From positions 1-20,204 of IMG/VR virus record IMGVR_UViG_3300045612_000222: DNA of 20,204 bases. One strand, 5' to 3'. A model generated the notes under the pieces. It worked only from the letters and a program-made list of their open reading frames with translations. It had not been told where the DNA came from and searched no databases. A program made the translations under genes and the position numbers. Of the stretch, positions 1,078 to 16,294 are shown piece after piece (within the stretch, counting starts at the first letter, position 1; every line of letters starts with the position of its first letter). The stretch is from a virus.

Positions 1078-3096
1078 ATGGCAAGAAAAAGAAGAAACAA
1101 TGATAATCAACCTATTGGAGTTGGTTTGACAACAAAGCAATCAAAAAGAAGAAAACCAATTGGATCAGAATTGCTTTTAGATATTGAACCACTTACAGAA
1201 AATCAAAAAAAATTATTTGAGTCTTATGATTCTGGTAAACATTTAGTTGCTCACGGAGTTGCTGGTTCTGGTAAAACATTTTTATGCCTCTTCAAGGCAC
1301 TTCAAGATGTATTGTGTGAATATACTCCATATGAAAAGATTTACATCGTCAGATCTCTTGTACCCACTCGTGAGATAGGATTTTTACCAGGACCACAACC
1401 ACTTGATGCAAAAATACTTACTCCGAGTGGATGGACTACGATGGGTCAAATAAAAGTTGGAGATTATGTGATTGCTAAAAATGGAAAACCAACAAAAGTT
1501 CTTGGCGTTTATTCAAAAGGAAAAAAATTGATTTATAAAATTACGACAACCGAAAATACATCTACAGAATGTTGTGAAGATCATTTATGGATGACTAAAA
1601 CATTTGAAGATAAAAAACGACAAAGAACTGGTAATGTAAAATCTACTAGACAAATTATTAATACTCTTTATGATAAAAATGGAAAAATAAATCACTATAT
1701 TCCGAGAAATGAACCAATTCAATTTCCTAAAAATAATCTTCCAATATCTCCATATGTTTTAGGTGTTATTTTGGGTGATGGTTCAATATCTAATTCTATT
1801 GCTATAGCAAATACAGATATTGAATTAATCGAAAAAGTTGAAAATGAAGTAAATAAAATTGGGTGTTATTTAAAAACTTCTTCATCTTCTAATAATATTC
1901 AATATACAATCAGTTCAAAAGATTTGAAGTGCAATAAACCCGCAAGAAGAGTTCTACTTAAAAATATCAATAATGATAAAAAAATTGAATATTATTCAAT
2001 TGGAGATGCCATAAAAAATCTCAACTTATCCAAAAATGTAATCACAAAAAGATGTAAAGAAAGTAAAATAATTAATGAATATGAGTATAAATTTTTACCA
2101 CCATTAAATAGATGGCAAAATCCTATTAAAAATTATTTATATGAACTTGGATTGAGTGGTAAAAAAGCATATGATAAGTTTATTCCAGATTTATACAAAT
2201 ATTCTTGTGTAGATGATAGAATAGAACTTCTTCGTGGACTCATGGATACCGATGGAACAATCAAAGATATATGTGGTGGTTGTTGTTCTTATACAACTAT
2301 TTCAAAACAATTAGCAGATGATGTGGTAGAGTTGGTTCAATCTTTGGGTGGAAGAGCAACTTATAGGAGTAGAAATAGAATTAATAGAGAAAAGAAAAAT
2401 GTTTTAATTGATAAGAATGGAAAAAAAAGATTGATAATAACAAAACATATATCATATGAATTAAATATTTCTCTACCAAAAGAAATAAATCCTTTTTATA
2501 TTTCAAGAAAAGCAGATAGATTTAAACCCAAATATATGCATTACGTTGGTATAAAATCTATAGAACCAGTATGCGAAAAGGAAGTTCAGTGTATCTCAGT
2601 TGAAGATCAAGAACATCTTTATATTACTGATCAATATATTGTGACTCATAATAGTCACGAAGATAAAGCATCTCTTTATCAAATTCCTTATAAGAATATG
2701 GTAAAATACATGTTTCAGATGCCCTCTGATGCTGATTTTGAAATGCTTTATGGAAATCTCAAGGCACAAGAAACGATTAGTTTCTGGAGCACTTCTTTTA
2801 TTCGTGGTACAACTCTTGATAATTGTATTATTATTGTAGATGAATTAGAAAATTTAAATTTTCATGAATTGGACTCCATCATTACTCGTGTAGGTGAAAA
2901 TACTAAAATTCTTTTTTGTGGTGACATTTCTCAAAGTGATTTACTTCGTCAAAATGAAAAAAATGGTATTGTAGATTTTATGAGAATTATTCGTCAAATG
3001 CCATCATTTGATATTATTGAATTTCAAATCGCAGACATAATTCGTAGTGGACTAATTAAGGAATACATTCTTACAAAAATGGAACTTGGTTTATGA
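1078..3096 (+). CDS. phoH: PhoH-like P-loop ATPase interrupted by an intein
   Basis: The 672-residue precursor is PhoH split by an in-frame intein (residues 106-525). After splicing the product would be 252 residues, the usual size for phage PhoH. The Walker A motif GVAGSGKT is at residues 60-67 in the N-extein; Walker B (IIIVDELENL, D588-E589) is in the C-extein. The insertion is inside the conserved GFLPG...K motif: joining G105 to S526 restores GFLPGSHEDK, with the lysine five residues after the glycine as in bacterial PhoH (GFLPGDLQQK). PhoH is a predicted ATPase/helicase-like protein, sometimes linked to phosphate stress in hosts; its phage role is unresolved. Upstream gene abuts; the next gene overlaps by ATGA. 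Confidence 0.93.
   Translation: MARKRRNNDNQPIGVGLTTKQSKRRKPIGSELLLDIEPLTENQKKLFESYDSGKHLVAHGVAGSGKTFLCLFKALQDVLCEYTPYEKIYIVRSLVPTREIGFLPGPQPLDAKILTPSGWTTMGQIKVGDYVIAKNGKPTKVLGVYSKGKKLIYKITTTENTSTECCEDHLWMTKTFEDKKRQRTGNVKSTRQIINTLYDKNGKINHYIPRNEPIQFPKNNLPISPYVLGVILGDGSISNSIAIANTDIELIEKVENEVNKIGCYLKTSSSSNNIQYTISSKDLKCNKPARRVLLKNINNDKKIEYYSIGDAIKNLNLSKNVITKRCKESKIINEYEYKFLPPLNRWQNPIKNYLYELGLSGKKAYDKFIPDLYKYSCVDDRIELLRGLMDTDGTIKDICGGCCSYTTISKQLADDVVELVQSLGGRATYRSRNRINREKKNVLIDKNGKKRLIITKHISYELNISLPKEINPFYISRKADRFKPKYMHYVGIKSIEPVCEKEVQCISVEDQEHLYITDQYIVTHNSHEDKASLYQIPYKNMVKYMFQMPSDADFEMLYGNLKAQETISFWSTSFIRGTTLDNCIIIVDELENLNFHELDSIITRVGENTKILFCGDISQSDLLRQNEKNGIVDFMRIIRQMPSFDIIEFQIADIIRSGLIKEYILTKMELGL
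1393..2652 (+). mobile_element. Class 3 intein with LAGLIDADG homing endonuclease inside PhoH
   Basis: A 420-residue intein runs from P106 to N525 of the precursor. The start block is PQPLDAKILTPSGW, and it ends QYIVTHN followed by +1 serine (S526). Residue 1 is proline rather than Cys/Ser/Ala. The three residues that define class 3 inteins are present: W171 in block B (EDHLW, with block-B His169), C505 in block F (VQCISV) and T523 in block G (VTHN). In class 3 the block F cysteine is the known first nucleophile. Two LAGLIDADG motifs keep their acidic residues: VLGVILGDG (227-235) and LLRGLMDTDG (384-393), so homing activity is plausible. The boundary is fixed by the conserved PhoH motif it interrupts. 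Confidence 0.92.
1942..2097 (+). other. NUMOD1-like DNA-binding segment embedded in the intein endonuclease
   Basis: Residues 289-340 of the PhoH precursor, between the two LAGLIDADG motifs, fit the NUMOD1 pattern: a short beta part (RRVLLKNINNDKKIEYY), then SIGDAIKNLNLSKNVITKRC like the NUMOD1 helix-turn-helix SIxxAAxxLxISxxTIxxxC, ending EYEYKFLPP. NUMOD1 is a modular DNA-binding repeat typically attached to GIY-YIG or HNH homing endonucleases. Here it would extend target recognition. The match is by eye, without a profile search. Confidence 0.6.
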
Positions 3097-3770
3097 CATT
3101 TATACATGTTGATGTTAAACTTCCTTTATTGGAAAGGACTACAATTGATGGAGTTAGATATTATTCCATTCAAGAAGGAGATGAATTATTAAAACTTGTT
3201 TCTATCACTTCTGTTACCAGTTATATTAATCGTCAGATTTTTTTAAACTGGAGAAAAAAAATAGGAGAAGAAGAAGCAGACAAAATAACTAAAGCAGCAA
3301 CTAGTCGTGGAACTGATATGCATACTTTGGTTGAAAAATATTTACATAATATAGAACTTCCATCAGTTCAACCCCTATCAGAGTTTTTATTTAAGATTGC
3401 AAAAACAGATTTGGATAAAATTGATAATATACATGCTCTTGAGCAGTCTATGTATAGTAAAGTTCTTGGAATTGCCGGAACATGTGATTGTATAGCAGAA
3501 TATAATGGAGAATTAGCTGTTATTGACTTTAAAACTTCTAAAAAACCAAAACCAAAAGAATGGATCGATCATTATTTTGTGCAATGTGCTGCTTATGCTT
3601 GCATGTTATATGAAATTACTGGTATAATGGTAAAAAAATTTGTAATTATTATGGCTTGTGAAAATGGAGAATGTGAAGTATATGAAGAATATAATAAGCA
3701 AAAGTATATCAAATTACTTACCCAGTATATTAGAGACTTTGTTAGATATAAACTTCAATCCTATGAATGA
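3093..3770 (+). CDS. PD-(D/E)XK exonuclease, RecB/MGME1-like
   Basis: A 225-residue single-domain nuclease. Visible motifs in order: RGTDMHTLVEKYL (H77, the RecB-type histidine motif), ALEQSMYS (E117), LGIAGTCDCIA (D132), AVIDFKTSKK (D145-x-K147, the metal-binding D-x-K core), and VQCAAYA (Q164, Y168). This is the layout of the Cas4/RecB/MGME1 branch, which degrades single- or double-stranded DNA ends with Mg2+. Cyanophages often carry such an exonuclease near the replication genes, probably for host-DNA recycling or recombination. It overlaps the phoH stop by ATGA and the gp33 start by 8 bases, so the genes look translationally coupled. Confidence 0.82.
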   Translation: MTFIHVDVKLPLLERTTIDGVRYYSIQEGDELLKLVSITSVTSYINRQIFLNWRKKIGEEEADKITKAATSRGTDMHTLVEKYLHNIELPSVQPLSEFLFKIAKTDLDKIDNIHALEQSMYSKVLGIAGTCDCIAEYNGELAVIDFKTSKKPKPKEWIDHYFVQCAAYACMLYEITGIMVKKFVIIMACENGECEVYEEYNKQKYIKLLTQYIRDFVRYKLQSYE

Positions 3771-9174: not shown

Positions 9175-9879
9175 ATGTCTAATAAAATTGGTAGACTTCG
9201 GGTTAGTATTCCTGAGGTTCAAAGCATATTAGGACCTCTTTCGGTAACTAGTCATTTTAAAGTTTCTTTACTTTTGGGTGGTCCAGATGAGTTATTTTCT
9301 CATTTAAATAAATGTAATTTATTGGGTGCAGATAAGCAAGAAAAATATGATTTTCTTTGTGCGGAAGCAACACTTCCTGGTTCAACTTTTGATATGGCTG
9401 AAGAGTCTGGAAGTCGTCAAGGAATTATAGAAAGATTCCCAATTCGTAGAATTTATAGTGATTTTAATCTTACTTTTTACGTGGATGACAAATATGATGT
9501 GATTCGTTTATTTGAAGAATGGATGAATTATATAGATCCACTTTTTTCTCAGAGTTTAAAATATGATGGTAGTCCTCAGGGACAAGGTAAAGATTTATTT
9601 AAAGAACCGCAGAACTTTTTTAGATTTAGTTATCCGAACACTTATAAAAAAAATATTGCAATTACAAAATTTGAAAGAAATTTTCTTAAAAATCCAAATA
9701 AAAAAGCAACAAGTTCAAATATCACTAATCAACCAACAATGACTTATTATTTTGTAGAAGCATTTCCCACAAATTTAACTGCACTTCCATTATCTTATGA
9801 AGGAAGCACTATAACCAAAACTACAATTAATTTTAGTTATACTCGTTATACTGTAGATAAAAATCTTGGTAAACCCTAA
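9175..9879 (+). CDS. Tail-tube family protein (gp19/gp54-like)
   Basis: A 234-residue protein of the T4 gp19-type tail-tube family. Recognisable stretches are ATLPGSTFDMAEESGSRQGI followed by ERFPIRRIYSDFNLTFYVD (tube beta-sandwich strands), then KYDVIRLFEEWMNYIDPL, the typical helix of this family, and VEAFPTNLTALPLSYEG with its P-x-x-L-x-x-xPLSY motif. It could be a tube subunit paralogue or the gp54-type tube initiator. Its location among baseplate genes, not beside a sheath gene, favours the initiator role. Transcribed divergently from gp4. Confidence 0.72.
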   Translation: MSNKIGRLRVSIPEVQSILGPLSVTSHFKVSLLLGGPDELFSHLNKCNLLGADKQEKYDFLCAEATLPGSTFDMAEESGSRQGIIERFPIRRIYSDFNLTFYVDDKYDVIRLFEEWMNYIDPLFSQSLKYDGSPQGQGKDLFKEPQNFFRFSYPNTYKKNIAITKFERNFLKNPNKKATSSNITNQPTMTYYFVEAFPTNLTALPLSYEGSTITKTTINFSYTRYTVDKNLGKP

Positions 9880-9907: not shown

Positions 9908-10636
9908 ATGACTTTGCCTAAAATTTCCACACCTCAATATGAGTTAGAATTACCTTCAACTGGAAAAACAATTAAGTATCGTCCATTTCTTGTAAAGGAG
10001 GAAAAAATATTACTTCTTGCTCTTGAAAGTAAAGATACTAAACAAATTACCATAGCAATTAAGTCTGTACTTAAAGAATGTATTCTAAGTAGGGGTATAA
10101 AAGTAGAAGAACTTCCCACATTTGATATTGAATACATTTTTCTAAATATTCGTGGAAAATCAGTTGGTGAAAGTGTTGATTTAATTGTAACTTGTAGTGA
10201 TGATGGTGTAACTGACGTTCCTGTGAAAATTTATATTGATGAAATAAAAGTACAAAAAAATGAAAATCATAAATCTGATATAGATTTGGGTGAAGGTTTA
10301 ACTTTAAGAATGAAATATCCATCATTAAATGAATTCATTAAATCTAATTTTGATTTTAGTGAAGAAAAAACAATTTCAAATATTGATGAATCTTTTGAAA
10401 TTATTGCATCTTGTATAGATATAGTATTCAATCAAGAGGATAGTTGGGCAGCAGCAGATTGTACAAAAAAAGAATTAAAAGAATGGATTGAAACGATGAA
10501 TACAAATCAATTTAAAATGATTGAAAATTTCTTTGAGACGATGCCTAAACTTTCTCATACTATTAAAGTTAAAAATCCAAAAACAGAAGTAGAAAATGAA
10601 GTGACGTTGGAGGGTTTAACCAGTTTTTTCGGTTAA
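9908..10636 (+). CDS. gp26: gp26-like baseplate hub / tail assembly protein
   Basis: A 242-residue member of the T4 baseplate gp26 family (Pfam T4_baseplate as I recall it). The N-terminus ISTPQYELELPSTGK then IKYRPFLVKEEKILL and the segment LPTFDIEYIFLNIRGKSVGE are the recognisable blocks; the middle has a LRMKYPSLNEF motif and the end is acidic with helices. In T4 gp26 helps hub assembly and is not a major virion part. Its last codons contain a slippery sequence that would connect it to the downstream -1 frame, giving a longer form of 302 residues. Confidence 0.8.
   Translation: MTLPKISTPQYELELPSTGKTIKYRPFLVKEEKILLLALESKDTKQITIAIKSVLKECILSRGIKVEELPTFDIEYIFLNIRGKSVGESVDLIVTCSDDGVTDVPVKIYIDEIKVQKNENHKSDIDLGEGLTLRMKYPSLNEFIKSNFDFSEEKTISNIDESFEIIASCIDIVFNQEDSWAAADCTKKELKEWIETMNTNQFKMIENFFETMPKLSHTIKVKNPKTEVENEVTLEGLTSFFG
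10624..10630 (+). promoter_or_regulatory. Candidate programmed -1 frameshift site T_TTT_TTC
   Basis: The gp26 codons AGT TTT TTC GGT TAA place a canonical X_XXY_YYZ heptamer (T_TTT_TTC) two codons before the stop, in the correct phase. After a -1 slip reading continues CGG TTA ATT ATG into the next ORF with no stop until 10813. The -1 frame is open from 10600. Both tRNAs can re-pair (UUU to UUU; UUC to UUU). The exact arrangement resembles the lambda G/GT tail chaperone site. No strong downstream pseudoknot was found by eye. Confidence 0.6.
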
Positions 10637-10638
10637 TT

Positions 10639-10815
10639 ATGGCTCATATGGATTTGGAGTCATATTTTAAACTTAATTTCTCATTAATGCAGTATCATAA
10701 ATATTCACTAACAGAAATAGAAAATATGATGCCTTGGGAAAGAGACATTTATGTTACATTATTACAACAACATATAGAAGAAGAAAACCTGAAACAACAA
10801 TCAAATGGCAATTAG
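10639..10815 (+). CDS. Small ORF, likely frameshift extension of gp26
   Basis: A 58-codon ORF in the -1 frame relative to gp26. The product has YFKLNFSLMQYHKYSLTEIE and a MMPWERDIYVTLLQQHIEEE block. I recall this Y-H-K-x-S-L-x-E-I-E-x-M-P-x-E-R-D-I-Y pattern in small proteins next to gp26 in T4-like phages, and the P-W-E-R-x-x-x element recalls the T part of tail assembly chaperones. The ATG at 10639 has no Shine-Dalgarno near it, so it is made either by -1 frameshifting or by reinitiation two bases after the gp26 stop. It overlaps the next gene by 11 bases. Confidence 0.75.
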   Translation: MAHMDLESYFKLNFSLMQYHKYSLTEIENMMPWERDIYVTLLQQHIEEENLKQQSNGN

Positions 10816-12661
10816 TTCTGCTATCAGACCAGAAGTTATTACTAATAAAAGAAATTTAAATCCTATAAAGGCACAAAATTTTATTTCTGGTAAAACTTCT
10901 TCTGATGTGAGAACATTTGGATCAGCAGCGAATAAAATAGTTAAATTTCAAAGAGCAGGTGTACAACCATCATCAGTAGATATTAATAGTATTATAAAAA
11001 CATTATCAACGGGAATAGTTAATAATTATAATAATCAAGCACAAACAATCAATAATTCAGTTACAAATATAATTAATAAAACTATTGGTAATTTATCAAA
11101 AGATTATCAAGATAAAATTAAAAAAGTAGATGAGGCAAAACCAACTGGTGTTCTTCAAAAAGTTTTGGGTCTTTATAAAGATGTAATTAATTTTATACAG
11201 TTTTTTGGAAGAAGAAAATTTGTAGATGGGTTGCGAGATAATCTAAAAGCACTTCAAACCTCTTTTAGTGAAAGTTTTGAAGTTGCAAAATTAATTCGTC
11301 AGGTTATAATTAAAATTGTAAAACAATTATCTAATTTACCAAAAGCTTCACCATCAGGTGGTGGTGGTATCAATCTTGATGTTGATGTTCCTGGAAATAA
11401 ATTAAAAGGTAGTAATACACCTCTTAATAGAAGAATGAGAGGAGGAATGGGTAAGGGTAAGATGCTTGCTCTTGGTGCCGGTGCTCTTGGATTAGGTGTT
11501 GCTGGTGCTGCTGCAACAAATGCTCTTTCCGATAGTGATGCAATACAACCAAAAAGTTCTACACCAGAAATACCAGAAAACATAGTTGATAGTTTAAGTG
11601 TTATTATTAATAGATTTGCATCTGCGATTGATAGATTAATTAAAGGTAGTTCTGATAAAAAATCATCTGGTTCTTCTGCTAGTTCATCTAGAGGTGCTTC
11701 TAGTGCTTCACCTGGTGCTTCACCTGGTGCTCCGGGAGACCCAGGTGAAACACCAAGTTCTCCAGTAGTCAGTTCTGCGCCTGTAGATGAAAAACTTGCT
11801 GCATATACTTCTGTTTTGGAAGGAACTGCAGGTCAAAATGCTGCAGATGCAATGCAAGTCATGTTGAATCGTGCTGTACAAAATCATGGAAAATTTGGTG
11901 GACTTGGAGAACAAGTTATGGCTGAAGGACAATTTACTCCAATGGCAGCAGCAATTTATGGGACTTCTGGAGACCCTGCTGCAAATAGAGCATATGGTCA
12001 TATTGCTCCAATGCTAGGCAAAACTCCAGCAGAAAGGAAAGCAAAGTTAAGACAGATTGTAGAAACAGAAGGAATGAAAGGATTAGATAAACTATACAAT
12101 AAAAAATTTGCAGGAGAGGCCAATAAAGTGCTTGCAGATTTTAAATCTGGGGGACCATTATCACGAAATGCAGCGCAAGGAGTAAAGGGAAGAGTATACT
12201 TTAAGGGCCAAACTGATCTCCACAATATGAAACCAGGGGATTTTTATAGATACACTGGTGGAAATTACTTTCATACCCTGAATCCAGAAGAAATTAAAGG
12301 AAAAATTGGGACATTACAACAAATTAATCCTGCAACAGTAACACCACAAACTACACAAGCAGTAGCACAACAACGACAACAACAAATTGCACAAGTTTCA
12401 CAAGCAGTAGCACAACAACGACAACAACAAATTGCACAAGTTTCACAACCAGTACAAACACAACCTCAAGTAAATTATATTCCTATTGATATGAGTGGTG
12501 GAGGAAAACAGACACAACAATCATCATCATCTGGTGAAGGTATAAGTGCCCCACCACCAACATCACAGAGTGGGCCTACAGTTCCATTTTTGTCTTCATC
12601 AAATTCAGATAATTTTTTAGTTCTTTATTCAAGAATGATTTATAATTTGGTGGATGGGTGA
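10805..12661 (+). CDS. Tail protein with SleB-like cell wall hydrolase domain
   Basis: A 618-residue multi-part protein. Residues 1-180 are mostly helical with a polar N/Q-rich stretch. Residues 219-241 form a glycine/alanine-rich hydrophobic segment (membrane-like). Residues 281-326 are a Ser/Pro/Gly collagen-like linker. Residues 328-495 resemble the SleB/CwlJ cell wall hydrolase fold: VLEGTAGQNAADAM with E339 in the position of the catalytic glutamate, MLNRA (N355, R356), GQF (Q376-F377), and a late His in NYFH (H490). Then a Q-rich repeat and a terminal helix. It sits between the gp26 module and a second hydrolase protein, so it probably travels in the tail and opens peptidoglycan. The position after a chaperone also fits a tape-measure-like role. 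Confidence 0.75.
   Translation: MAISSAIRPEVITNKRNLNPIKAQNFISGKTSSDVRTFGSAANKIVKFQRAGVQPSSVDINSIIKTLSTGIVNNYNNQAQTINNSVTNIINKTIGNLSKDYQDKIKKVDEAKPTGVLQKVLGLYKDVINFIQFFGRRKFVDGLRDNLKALQTSFSESFEVAKLIRQVIIKIVKQLSNLPKASPSGGGGINLDVDVPGNKLKGSNTPLNRRMRGGMGKGKMLALGAGALGLGVAGAAATNALSDSDAIQPKSSTPEIPENIVDSLSVIINRFASAIDRLIKGSSDKKSSGSSASSSRGASSASPGASPGAPGDPGETPSSPVVSSAPVDEKLAAYTSVLEGTAGQNAADAMQVMLNRAVQNHGKFGGLGEQVMAEGQFTPMAAAIYGTSGDPAANRAYGHIAPMLGKTPAERKAKLRQIVETEGMKGLDKLYNKKFAGEANKVLADFKSGGPLSRNAAQGVKGRVYFKGQTDLHNMKPGDFYRYTGGNYFHTLNPEEIKGKIGTLQQINPATVTPQTTQAVAQQRQQQIAQVSQAVAQQRQQQIAQVSQPVQTQPQVNYIPIDMSGGGKQTQQSSSSGEGISAPPPTSQSGPTVPFLSSSNSDNFLVLYSRMIYNLVDG
11714..11754. repeat. GC-rich inverted repeat in the linker of the SleB-like gene
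   Basis: A 14-base arm at 11714-11727 (GGTGCTTCACCTGG) pairs with 11741-11754 (CCAGGTGAAACACC) with one mismatch around a 13-base loop. The arms overlap codons for a Ser/Pro/Gly linker and part of the short direct repeat TTCACCTGGTGC. It is the most GC-rich potential hairpin in an AT-rich region. There is no T-run, so it is not an intrinsic terminator. Confidence 0.65.
12356..12445 (+). repeat. Perfect 45-base tandem duplication (two copies)
   Basis: Two identical, adjacent 45-base units (12356-12400 and 12401-12445) encode QAVAQQRQQQIAQVS twice. A degenerate third start (QPVQTQPQV) follows. The copies do not differ even at silent positions, so the duplication is recent or maintained by slippage. 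It lies after the hydrolase domain in a glutamine-rich linker, where length change is harmless. Confidence 0.92.
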
Positions 12662-14766
12662 TGGCTAAAGTTTTTTCTTCTCCTCTTGTTTCTGCATCAA
12701 ATAATATTATTCTTTTTTCGAGAGGAGCAAAACAACTATCAAGAGTTCAAAGGCAGTTAGTTCAGTTTGATGCATTTATAAAAACTAAAACTATTGAAAT
12801 TGAAAAAGATAAACTACCAAGTAAGAAAAAAATCAAAGAACTTGCAAATTTAAATGTTGCATCAACTTTTGGTTCTCCCAGTGGTTTGTTGAGTGGATTG
12901 GCTAGTGGTGCTCTTGATATTGCTGGTTTTCTTGGGAATATGTTTCCAGCAAGAGGAAAAACAGGAAAACCAGGAAGATTACCAGCAAGAATAAAAGCAC
13001 CAAAACCAACAGTCAGAGGTTCAAACTTAAAACTTGGTGGATTGAGAGCAGTTGGAGTTGTAAATGCTTTATTTGCTGGACTTGATTTTGCGACTGGATT
13101 GCAAGAAGGCGAAAGTGTAGGAAAATCAGCAACTGGTGCTGTTGGTTCTCTTGCTGGAAGTTTACTTGGTGGTGCAATCGGACAAGCACTTATTCCAATT
13201 CCCGGAGTTGGATTTGTACTTGGAAGTATGGCTGGTGGATTTTTGGGTGGTTATACTGCAGATAGAGTATATGAAGGTGGAAGTTATATAAAGAAAAAAT
13301 TAAATGAAAGATTGAAGAAACAAGAAGCAGCACAGGCACAGAAGGTGGCATCTAATAATAATTTTGATGATATAGTGAATAAATTTAGTGAGTCTGTAGG
13401 AAAGTTTGAAAACTTTGTATATAATTCATTTGCAAATGTAATCAATGCTGCAGCATCTGCTTCTGGTTCTGCTCAAGAAGGTGCTCCAATGGAATATGGT
13501 CCACCAGAACCAGAACTTCAACCAGGAAAAGATACTGGACAAGAACTGCAAGATGTAGAAGCAGAAGGTGGAAAAAAACCTAGCCGATCAATTATAACTT
13601 CTCGTTTTGGTCCACGTAATGGTAGGCAACATTACGGAACAGATTATGGAGAAAATGCTGGAACTCCCGTAAGTGTAATTCAACCAGGAAATGTTCAATT
13701 TGCTGGATATACTAGTGGGGGTGGAAATACTGTACATATAGATCATCCAGATGGTTCTCAGACTAGATATTTGCACTTTCAAAAAACACCAAATGTAAAA
13801 ACTGGACAACAAATAGAACCAGGTACAGTTATTGGATATGTCGGAAATACTGGTAGATCTAGGGGACCACATTTACATTTTGAATATGCTCCACCGGGTC
13901 AAGGATCTATAGATTCAGCTCCTTATGCAGACAAGTATTTTAGATTCGGTGGAAATGTTAAAGTAAAACCAAAGGCAGGAGTTTCGAGAGCAGGTTCTAA
14001 CCCTTTTGTTTTAGAATTACACGCAGACCCAAATGCAAAAGGACAAAAGACAGGATTAATCCCAAGCAATATCAGTCCAGATACTGCTGTCTCACAAGCA
14101 CTTGTGTCTAGTTTTGGAACTTATGGTAAAAATTATAGAGGAGGGTTGGGTGTTACAAATAGAGGTGGAAATATTCTAGAAACAGATATGGCAGTGGGCG
14201 CTAAAAAAAATGCAGAAGAAATAGTTAAAGCAATGTTGAAAGACCCTAAACGTGCATATCACATTTTTGCAGGACACGCTGATGTAACAAAAGGTGAAAC
14301 TGGTGCTCCTGGAGAAAAGGAATATAATTTGAGAACTGCTGAATTGGTTGAAAAATTAGCAACAGCACGGGGACTAAATTTAATTTATCATAGATCTATT
14401 AATGCAAATAATCCAGGTGATCCAAATTCAAATTTTTCTAGAATTGAAGCAATAATGAAAAATGCTTCAAAATCACAAGCAACACAACCAACAACAACAC
14501 CACAAGTTCAATCGATACCTAAACCACTGGTAACACAAAAAAAATTAGAGCAATATCCAACATACAATCAGCAACAATCAAGTGTAACTATAATGCCAAT
14601 AATGATGGGAGGTAATCAAGGTGGTGGTGGACAACAACAAAAACCTGTTTTTATTCCAGTTGGTGGTGGTGGAGGTGGAACTGTTGTTCTTCCTGGACCA
14701 AGTGAAGGACAGATAGTAAATAGTTTAATAAAATCTATGTTACTTACAAATCTTTCAGGTACATAA
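12661..14766 (+). CDS. Tail protein with M23 peptidase and permuted amidase-like domain
   Basis: A 701-residue protein starting at ATG 12661, which overlaps the previous TGA by one base (TGATG); an in-frame GTG sits just before it. Residues 70-205 are Gly/Ala-rich and hydrophobic, including a glycine-zipper-like stretch (GSLAGSLLGGAIGQALIP). Residues 310-409 are an M23 (LytM-type) metallopeptidase: H324 and D328 (HYGTD), H372 (YLHF), H404 and H406 (HLHF), as in LytM. Residues 446-602 resemble an N-acetylmuramoyl-L-alanine amidase (Amidase_3) with its halves in swapped order (see findings). A Q-rich and Gly-rich tail (SVTIMPIMMGG) ends the protein, similar to the neighbour. Probably a tail-borne peptidoglycan hydrolase or tape-measure-like protein. 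Confidence 0.8.
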   Translation: MAKVFSSPLVSASNNIILFSRGAKQLSRVQRQLVQFDAFIKTKTIEIEKDKLPSKKKIKELANLNVASTFGSPSGLLSGLASGALDIAGFLGNMFPARGKTGKPGRLPARIKAPKPTVRGSNLKLGGLRAVGVVNALFAGLDFATGLQEGESVGKSATGAVGSLAGSLLGGAIGQALIPIPGVGFVLGSMAGGFLGGYTADRVYEGGSYIKKKLNERLKKQEAAQAQKVASNNNFDDIVNKFSESVGKFENFVYNSFANVINAAASASGSAQEGAPMEYGPPEPELQPGKDTGQELQDVEAEGGKKPSRSIITSRFGPRNGRQHYGTDYGENAGTPVSVIQPGNVQFAGYTSGGGNTVHIDHPDGSQTRYLHFQKTPNVKTGQQIEPGTVIGYVGNTGRSRGPHLHFEYAPPGQGSIDSAPYADKYFRFGGNVKVKPKAGVSRAGSNPFVLELHADPNAKGQKTGLIPSNISPDTAVSQALVSSFGTYGKNYRGGLGVTNRGGNILETDMAVGAKKNAEEIVKAMLKDPKRAYHIFAGHADVTKGETGAPGEKEYNLRTAELVEKLATARGLNLIYHRSINANNPGDPNSNFSRIEAIMKNASKSQATQPTTTPQVQSIPKPLVTQKKLEQYPTYNQQQSSVTIMPIMMGGNQGGGGQQQKPVFIPVGGGGGGTVVLPGPSEGQIVNSLIKSMLLTNLSGT

Positions 14767-16087: not shown

Positions 16088-16294
16088 ATGAAAATTCAAG
16101 AAATTATTTATAATATATGTGAAGAACTAAATTCTTCTCCAAACGAACAAAGAAGAAGGTATCTTGAAGAATATCTTCAGGATATTTTATCCTATCAAAA
16201 GAACAATTCAAATCAAGTTATGGTTCCAACTTCACTGGAATTATATTACAACGAACATCCAGAAGCACTAGAGTGTAGAATATACGATGATTGA
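16088..16294 (+). CDS. Small conserved phage protein between gp27 and gp5 (function unknown)
   Basis: A 68-residue helical protein rich in charged residues, with an RRRYLEEYLQDILSYQKNN helix and a C-terminal VPTSLELYYNEHPEALECRIYDD. I recall the LELYC-x-x-NP-x-A-x-EC-x-x-YE/D ending from small cyanophage proteins, with no known role. Coding is supported by the 8-base overlap with the gp5-like gene and by the absence of any gap on either side. Confidence 0.7.
   Translation: MKIQEIIYNICEELNSSPNEQRRRYLEEYLQDILSYQKNNSNQVMVPTSLELYYNEHPEALECRIYDD

Follow-up and report, generated by a model that had tools for sequence, protein, structure and literature searches.

A conserved heptamer and flanking elements support a predicted -1 frameshift joining gene 26 to a gp51-like frame in marine T4-like phages

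Frameshifting in tail assembly chaperone genes is reportedly conserved in several groups of T4-like phages, T4 itself being said to have genes 26 and 51. In phage lambda, the slip site of the G/GT pair is G_GGA_AAG, which differs from the T_TTT_TTC that concerns us here. The G:GT ratio in lambda is about 30:1 (PMC5009743). The chaperone genes of T4-like phages were identified by Vladimirov, Gautam and Davidson (2022, Virology 566:9-15), whose work we cite through PMC10885494 and PMC12846349; the former ascribes to it separate short and long chaperone genes in some T4-like phages, and the latter polyT slippery signals in the TAC-N genes of these phages. Cyanophage gp51 is described as being without the first ~200 amino acids of other gp51 proteins (Sullivan et al. 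2010, PMC3037559). Given these prior reports of chaperone frameshifts in T4-like phages, the kind of system analysed below is known, and the present case is a well-supported addition to it. The window, i.e. the whole stretch of viral DNA analysed, comes from a marine cyanophage and comprises 20,204 nucleotides (positions 1 to 20,204 of IMG/VR record IMGVR_UViG_3300045612_000222), and the chaperone locus and its immediate neighbours lie on the + strand.

The gene 26 junction and its heptamer

Gene 26 (9908-10636) encodes a protein of 242 amino acids ending in SFFG*, which matches PF12322 (T4_baseplate) at 1.8e-72 and phrog_150 at 2.5e-78. Read base by base, its last codons are AGT (10622), TTT (10625), TTC (10628), GGT (10631) and TAA (10634). 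The heptamer T_TTT_TTC, which has the X_XXY_YYZ form of -1 programmed frameshift sites, occupies 10624-10630 in the phase for -1 slippage, exactly as the original prediction had claimed. The 0-frame stop (10634-10636) is found one codon past the heptamer, and in 83/83 relatives it stands 0-2 codons past TTC. The same reading agreed with the prediction that the -1 frame has no stop between 10600 and 10812 and is closed by TAG at 10813-10815, that the products would have 242 and 302 amino acids (241 + 61 = 302), and that the junction peptide would read SFF-RLIMAHMDLE. The -1 frame coding region, TAC-C (10630-10815), contributes 61 amino acids after the slip and then TAG.

Absence of the heptamer from close relatives had been named beforehand as an observation that would count against a frameshift. 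In a first comparison set of 80 IMG/VR loci, with gene 26 identities of 62-100%, T_TTT_TTC was present in phase in every locus. The set was then widened with ME01-group cyanophages, KVP40-like vibriophages, a Stenotrophomonas phage and others to give 83 non-redundant sequences, and the heptamer was again found in all of them. It is invariant even where gene 26 identity is only 27-33%, as between cyanophages and the KVP40-like vibriophages and Stenotrophomonas phages. If codon usage is taken into account and phylogeny is left aside, the probability of its presence in all 83 has a log10 of about -74. On a tree of 78 sequences there were 0 changes at all seven positions, while third codon positions of gene 26 immediately before them (10603-10621) underwent 9-31 changes. 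The residue before the two phenylalanines varies (Ser in 61, Asp in 12, Ala in 6, Asn in 4), but its codon invariably ends in T. The Phe pair itself is always TTT then TTC, while TTT and TTC are mixed at other conserved Phe columns of the gene. Judged from these comparisons, the conservation of the heptamer is not a product of chance.

The region after gene 26 was also viewed in some other phages. Two of Ackermann type, Cba120 (L082, 3010-3974) and Vibrio phage D495 (L083, 2983-3896), have a TAC-C-like -1 frame with a PWH motif after gene 26, that of Cba120 giving phrog_9633 and weak phrog_634 matches. The site in these two is ATT TTC or CTT TTC, not a perfect heptamer, so that the -1 frame there may be reached by a different kind of slip or by re-initiation. 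Rhizobium phage RHph_I1_18 (L084, 3001-3878) has the overlapping heptamers T_TTT_TTA and T_TTA_AAC several codons before the 0-frame stop. In Stenotrophomonas phage IME-SM1 (L103), the gene 26 frame is broken near its end (near 3253) in comparison with the nearly identical L102, perhaps by a sequencing error. Alignment-based scans for very distant relatives were unsuccessful, and a D495 query against viral contigs found no relatives.

Elements flanking the heptamer

Upstream of the heptamer we noticed an SD-like element, GGAGGG (10609-10614). The distance from the end of GGAGG to the heptamer is exactly 10 nt in 52 of the 83 relatives, and GAGG occurs at the same spacing in another 18/83. The Glu codon within the element is GAG in 70/79 sequences; at other conserved Glu columns GAG makes up 13-39%. 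By its spacing and codon bias, this element may act as a 5' stimulator of slippage.

On the 3' side, folding energy scanned along the locus had one sharp minimum, starting 6 nt past the heptamer. The mean z in a sample of one third of the main cyanophage group was -3.1, at the hairpin position only, and in the ME01-like group the minimum was at the same place (z -2.4) with an unrelated stem sequence. In the window, the stem pairs a 5' arm at 10638-10645, which begins 7 nt past the heptamer and includes the ATG at 10639-10641, with a 3' arm at 10657-10664; this falls within the 5-9 nt downstream at which a 3' stimulatory structure is expected.

The stem was tested for covariation on an ungapped alignment of 72 sequences with a nine-pair model, whose outermost pair (10637-10665) is unformed in the window. 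Stem cells were paired in 86% of cases, against 28-49% when the partner was slid. Compensatory changes on both sides were observed in 29 cells; the shuffled mean was 6.6, and none of 500 shuffles reached 29. An example is 10644-10658, where U-A is replaced by A-U or G-C, and on the tree this pair and 10642-10660 each showed about five coincident changes. Three of the nine pairs carry the covariation signal, which overlaps with coding constraint. Folded alone, the window hairpin was no more stable than its shuffles (z about -0.4 over 70 nt), and since the window sequence by itself is thus not significant, support for the hairpin comes from the comparative profile and the covariation. The hairpin is predicted to promote slippage.

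These elements also bear on whether the RNA polymerase, rather than the ribosome, might slip on the T run and add a base, so that some mRNAs would encode an in-frame fusion. A run of six T is indeed present in every relative, but it is never longer than six and always terminated by C, while slippage of bacterial polymerase is described for A or T tracts of about nine (PMC5009743). Ribosomal slippage, moreover, requires a heptamer in phase and a hairpin at ribosomal spacing, as found here, and we regard transcriptional slippage as extremely improbable.

The -1 frame and the downstream ATG

The -1 frame is open in all relatives and matches phrog_634 (baseplate hub assembly catalyst gp51) at 2e-31. 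A second match, at 2.2e-8, is to the C-terminus of phrog_150, to which gene 26 itself belongs, and may be taken as a first sign that fused forms exist. On the tree, the base after the heptamer (10631) changed once, and the next two positions changed 12 and 22 times. The 0-frame residue there is free to vary (Gly, Ala, Val, Glu, Ser or Asn); in the -1 frame, 77 of 90 loci have Arg (CGN) at the codon straddling the slip. This pattern of change at 10631, together with the retained Arg, therefore points to selection on the -1 frame before the ATG at 10639 is reached. A -1 codon that is translated would change in this way, and re-initiation at 10639 would not give such a pattern.

A stand-alone ORF of 58 amino acids (10639-10815) begins at this ATG, and the GenBank records of P-SSM2 and S-PM2, among others, annotate the TAC-C region as a separate small gp51. 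(In the records of S-PRM1 and DSL-LC03, gp51 is missing altogether and the region is unannotated; it lies at 1529-1712 in L106 and 1529-1696 in L107.) One could therefore argue for a separate gene reached by termination and re-initiation at ATG 10639, the heptamer being incidental. Such a route would gain from the nearness of the gene 26 stop, with only two bases between it and the ATG, and from the presence of an ATG at 10639 or at most two codons away in 85/89 loci. It leaves unexplained, however, the invariant heptamer, the -1 Arg encoded before the ATG, the fixed spacing of the SD-like element and the hairpin that contains the ATG. Four loci from two lineages (L054, L064, L073 and L074) have no ATG before -1 codon 19, yet keep the full C-terminal domain; the downstream ATG having been lost there, fusion is the sole evident route to that domain. 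In T4, too, the TAC-C domain is made fused to a gp26-like domain. We therefore consider re-initiation without a frameshift very unlikely, and the 58-residue ORF is probably not the main product.

The original prediction had further argued that the small ORF has no ribosome-binding site of its own. This is true, and an SD-like element is missing before the downstream ATG in 84/85 loci. As evidence it is weak, because most starts of gene 26 (63/83) and of the next gene (68/77) in these phages are without one too, and we have dropped the argument.

The conserved ATG could also be used in addition to the frameshift, the latter giving the long form TAC-NC and the former free TAC-C. Its retention in nearly all loci, though it is dispensable in the phages without it, would fit such a double use. 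The ATG is, however, also constrained as a Met codon of the protein and as part of the hairpin arm, and the lack of an SD-like element before it, common though this is in these phages, does not favour independent initiation. We think this combination unlikely, though less so than re-initiation alone. A frameshift that yields the fused product remains our preferred reading.

Protein identity, neighbouring genes and comparison with known systems

To identify the two products we compared them with the T4 proteins. T4 gp26 consists of PF12322 only (8.8e-64), and T4 gp51 of a PF12322 domain (3.9e-52) followed by a phrog_634 domain (residues 147-246, 1.2e-23). T4 gp51 therefore has the same build as the predicted fusion, in which PF12322 is found in the first frame and phrog_634 in the second. 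An AlphaFold2 model of gene 26 (pLDDT 83, pTM 0.77) was compared with 998 solved chains. The best was the HK97 tail assembly chaperone 2ob9 (Z 8.0, 84 residues), followed by 3fgx (Z 7.7) and YqbN 3klu (Z 7.0), both of which we take to be TAC-like proteins, with 84-86 residues aligned; the best clearly unrelated chain had a Z of 2.9. Foldseek alone placed 2ob9 at rank 6 (E 1.3), and because of this weak result the model gives moderate support for a TAC fold. When the gene 26 profile was run against PDB sequences, only chance matches came back. Based on the domain make-up of T4 gp51 and a predicted gp26 fold closest to solved tail assembly chaperones, gene 26 is most likely the short tail assembly chaperone, TAC-N, and the frameshift product of 302 amino acids TAC-NC.

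Gene 26 follows a tail tube protein-like gene (9175-9879; PF23849 8.2e-17, phrog_45 tail tube 3.5e-33), as expected of a chaperone gene. Two large genes come next, as the original prediction had stated; both are putative tape measure candidates, neither being identified as such by homology. The first (10805-12661, 618 amino acids) overlaps the end of TAC-C by 11 nt. It gave no match in the PDB or curated families and almost none elsewhere, a weak one being to a cyanophage gene annotated as SleB hydrolase, and its sequence is nearly unique to this lineage. The second (12658-14766, 702 amino acids) has an M23 peptidase domain (PF01551 5e-26), through which its best PHROG matches are to endolysin and tape measure families. 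Both genes thus have probable peptidoglycan-cutting domains, given the weak SleB similarity and the M23 domain respectively.

Two other genes of the window may be mentioned. A CP12 domain gene (16088-16294; PF02672 4.8e-8), a Calvin-cycle regulator carried by cyanophages, lies between tail genes. A PhoH-like ATPase gene (1078-3096; PF02562 2e-32) contains an in-frame intein with a LAGLIDADG homing endonuclease domain (PF14528 1.5e-9). If its extein junction is GFLPG^...HN^SHEDK, residue 1 of the intein would be Pro (or Gln), not Cys/Ser, indicating an unusual splicing class.

The prediction of a -1 frameshift with G/GT-type chaperone logic is thus supported by the heptamer in 83/83 relatives, the hairpin, the SD-like element, the -1 Arg, the relatives without the ATG, T4 gp51 and the HK97 TAC match. 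We hold it highly probable that the frameshift is real and makes the long chaperone form. Gene 26 and the small frame downstream would then be one tail assembly chaperone gene. The majority of ribosomes would stop at the end of gene 26 and give TAC-N. In a subset, two tRNA-Phe would slip one base back at T_TTT_TTC and re-pair, aided by pairing of the upstream GGAGG with 16S rRNA and by the hairpin holding the ribosome; these ribosomes would continue in the -1 frame to give TAC-NC. By analogy with lambda G/GT, TAC-N may coat the tape measure protein, and TAC-NC, through its additional C-terminal domain, may recruit tail tube subunits.

The residues missing from cyanophage gp51 would accordingly be supplied by gene 26 through the frameshift, which would account for the old oddity of a gp51 without its first ~200 residues (PMC3037559). 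Because gene 26 would provide these residues, the short cyanophage gp51 in GenBank is probably not a separate gene, and in several hundred public cyanophage records it would be better annotated as a joined product. The finding is useful for annotation and will be no surprise to specialists. The conserved signal also offers a compact, testable case of how a phage sets the proportions of two forms of a chaperone, and of how related lineages answer one need by frameshifting or by gene duplication.

The papers examined, among them those citing Vladimirov et al. (2022), make no mention of the SD-like element or the covarying hairpin, and the 2022 paper itself may have them. As described in the citing papers, the T4-like chaperones are alike in belonging to the PF12322 family, in having short and long forms and in having a polyT slip site. 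The TAC genes of Vandenendeviridae/Andersonviridae (phage Adele, PMC12846349) are also alike, with a -1 frame open in every relative, a conserved polyT motif and a downstream frame misannotated as a separate gene, but their motif is GTTTTT. T4 differs in that its genes 26 and 51 are separate and lie on opposite strands, and lambda G/GT is not known to be related in sequence to the gene 26 system. The dnaX cassette of E. coli shares the layout seen here, with an SD-like element ~10 nt 5' of the heptamer and a hairpin a few nt 3' of it. Its heptamer is, however, A_AAA_AAG, and its shift, at ~50% efficiency, leads to a shorter product, whereas the shift at T_TTT_TTC would lead to a longer one. 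We tentatively suggest that marine T4-like phages may use this full three-part, dnaX-like cassette to set finely a share of the long form far above the ~1/30 of lambda, and that the T4 branch may have replaced the cassette by duplication, giving genes 26 and 51.
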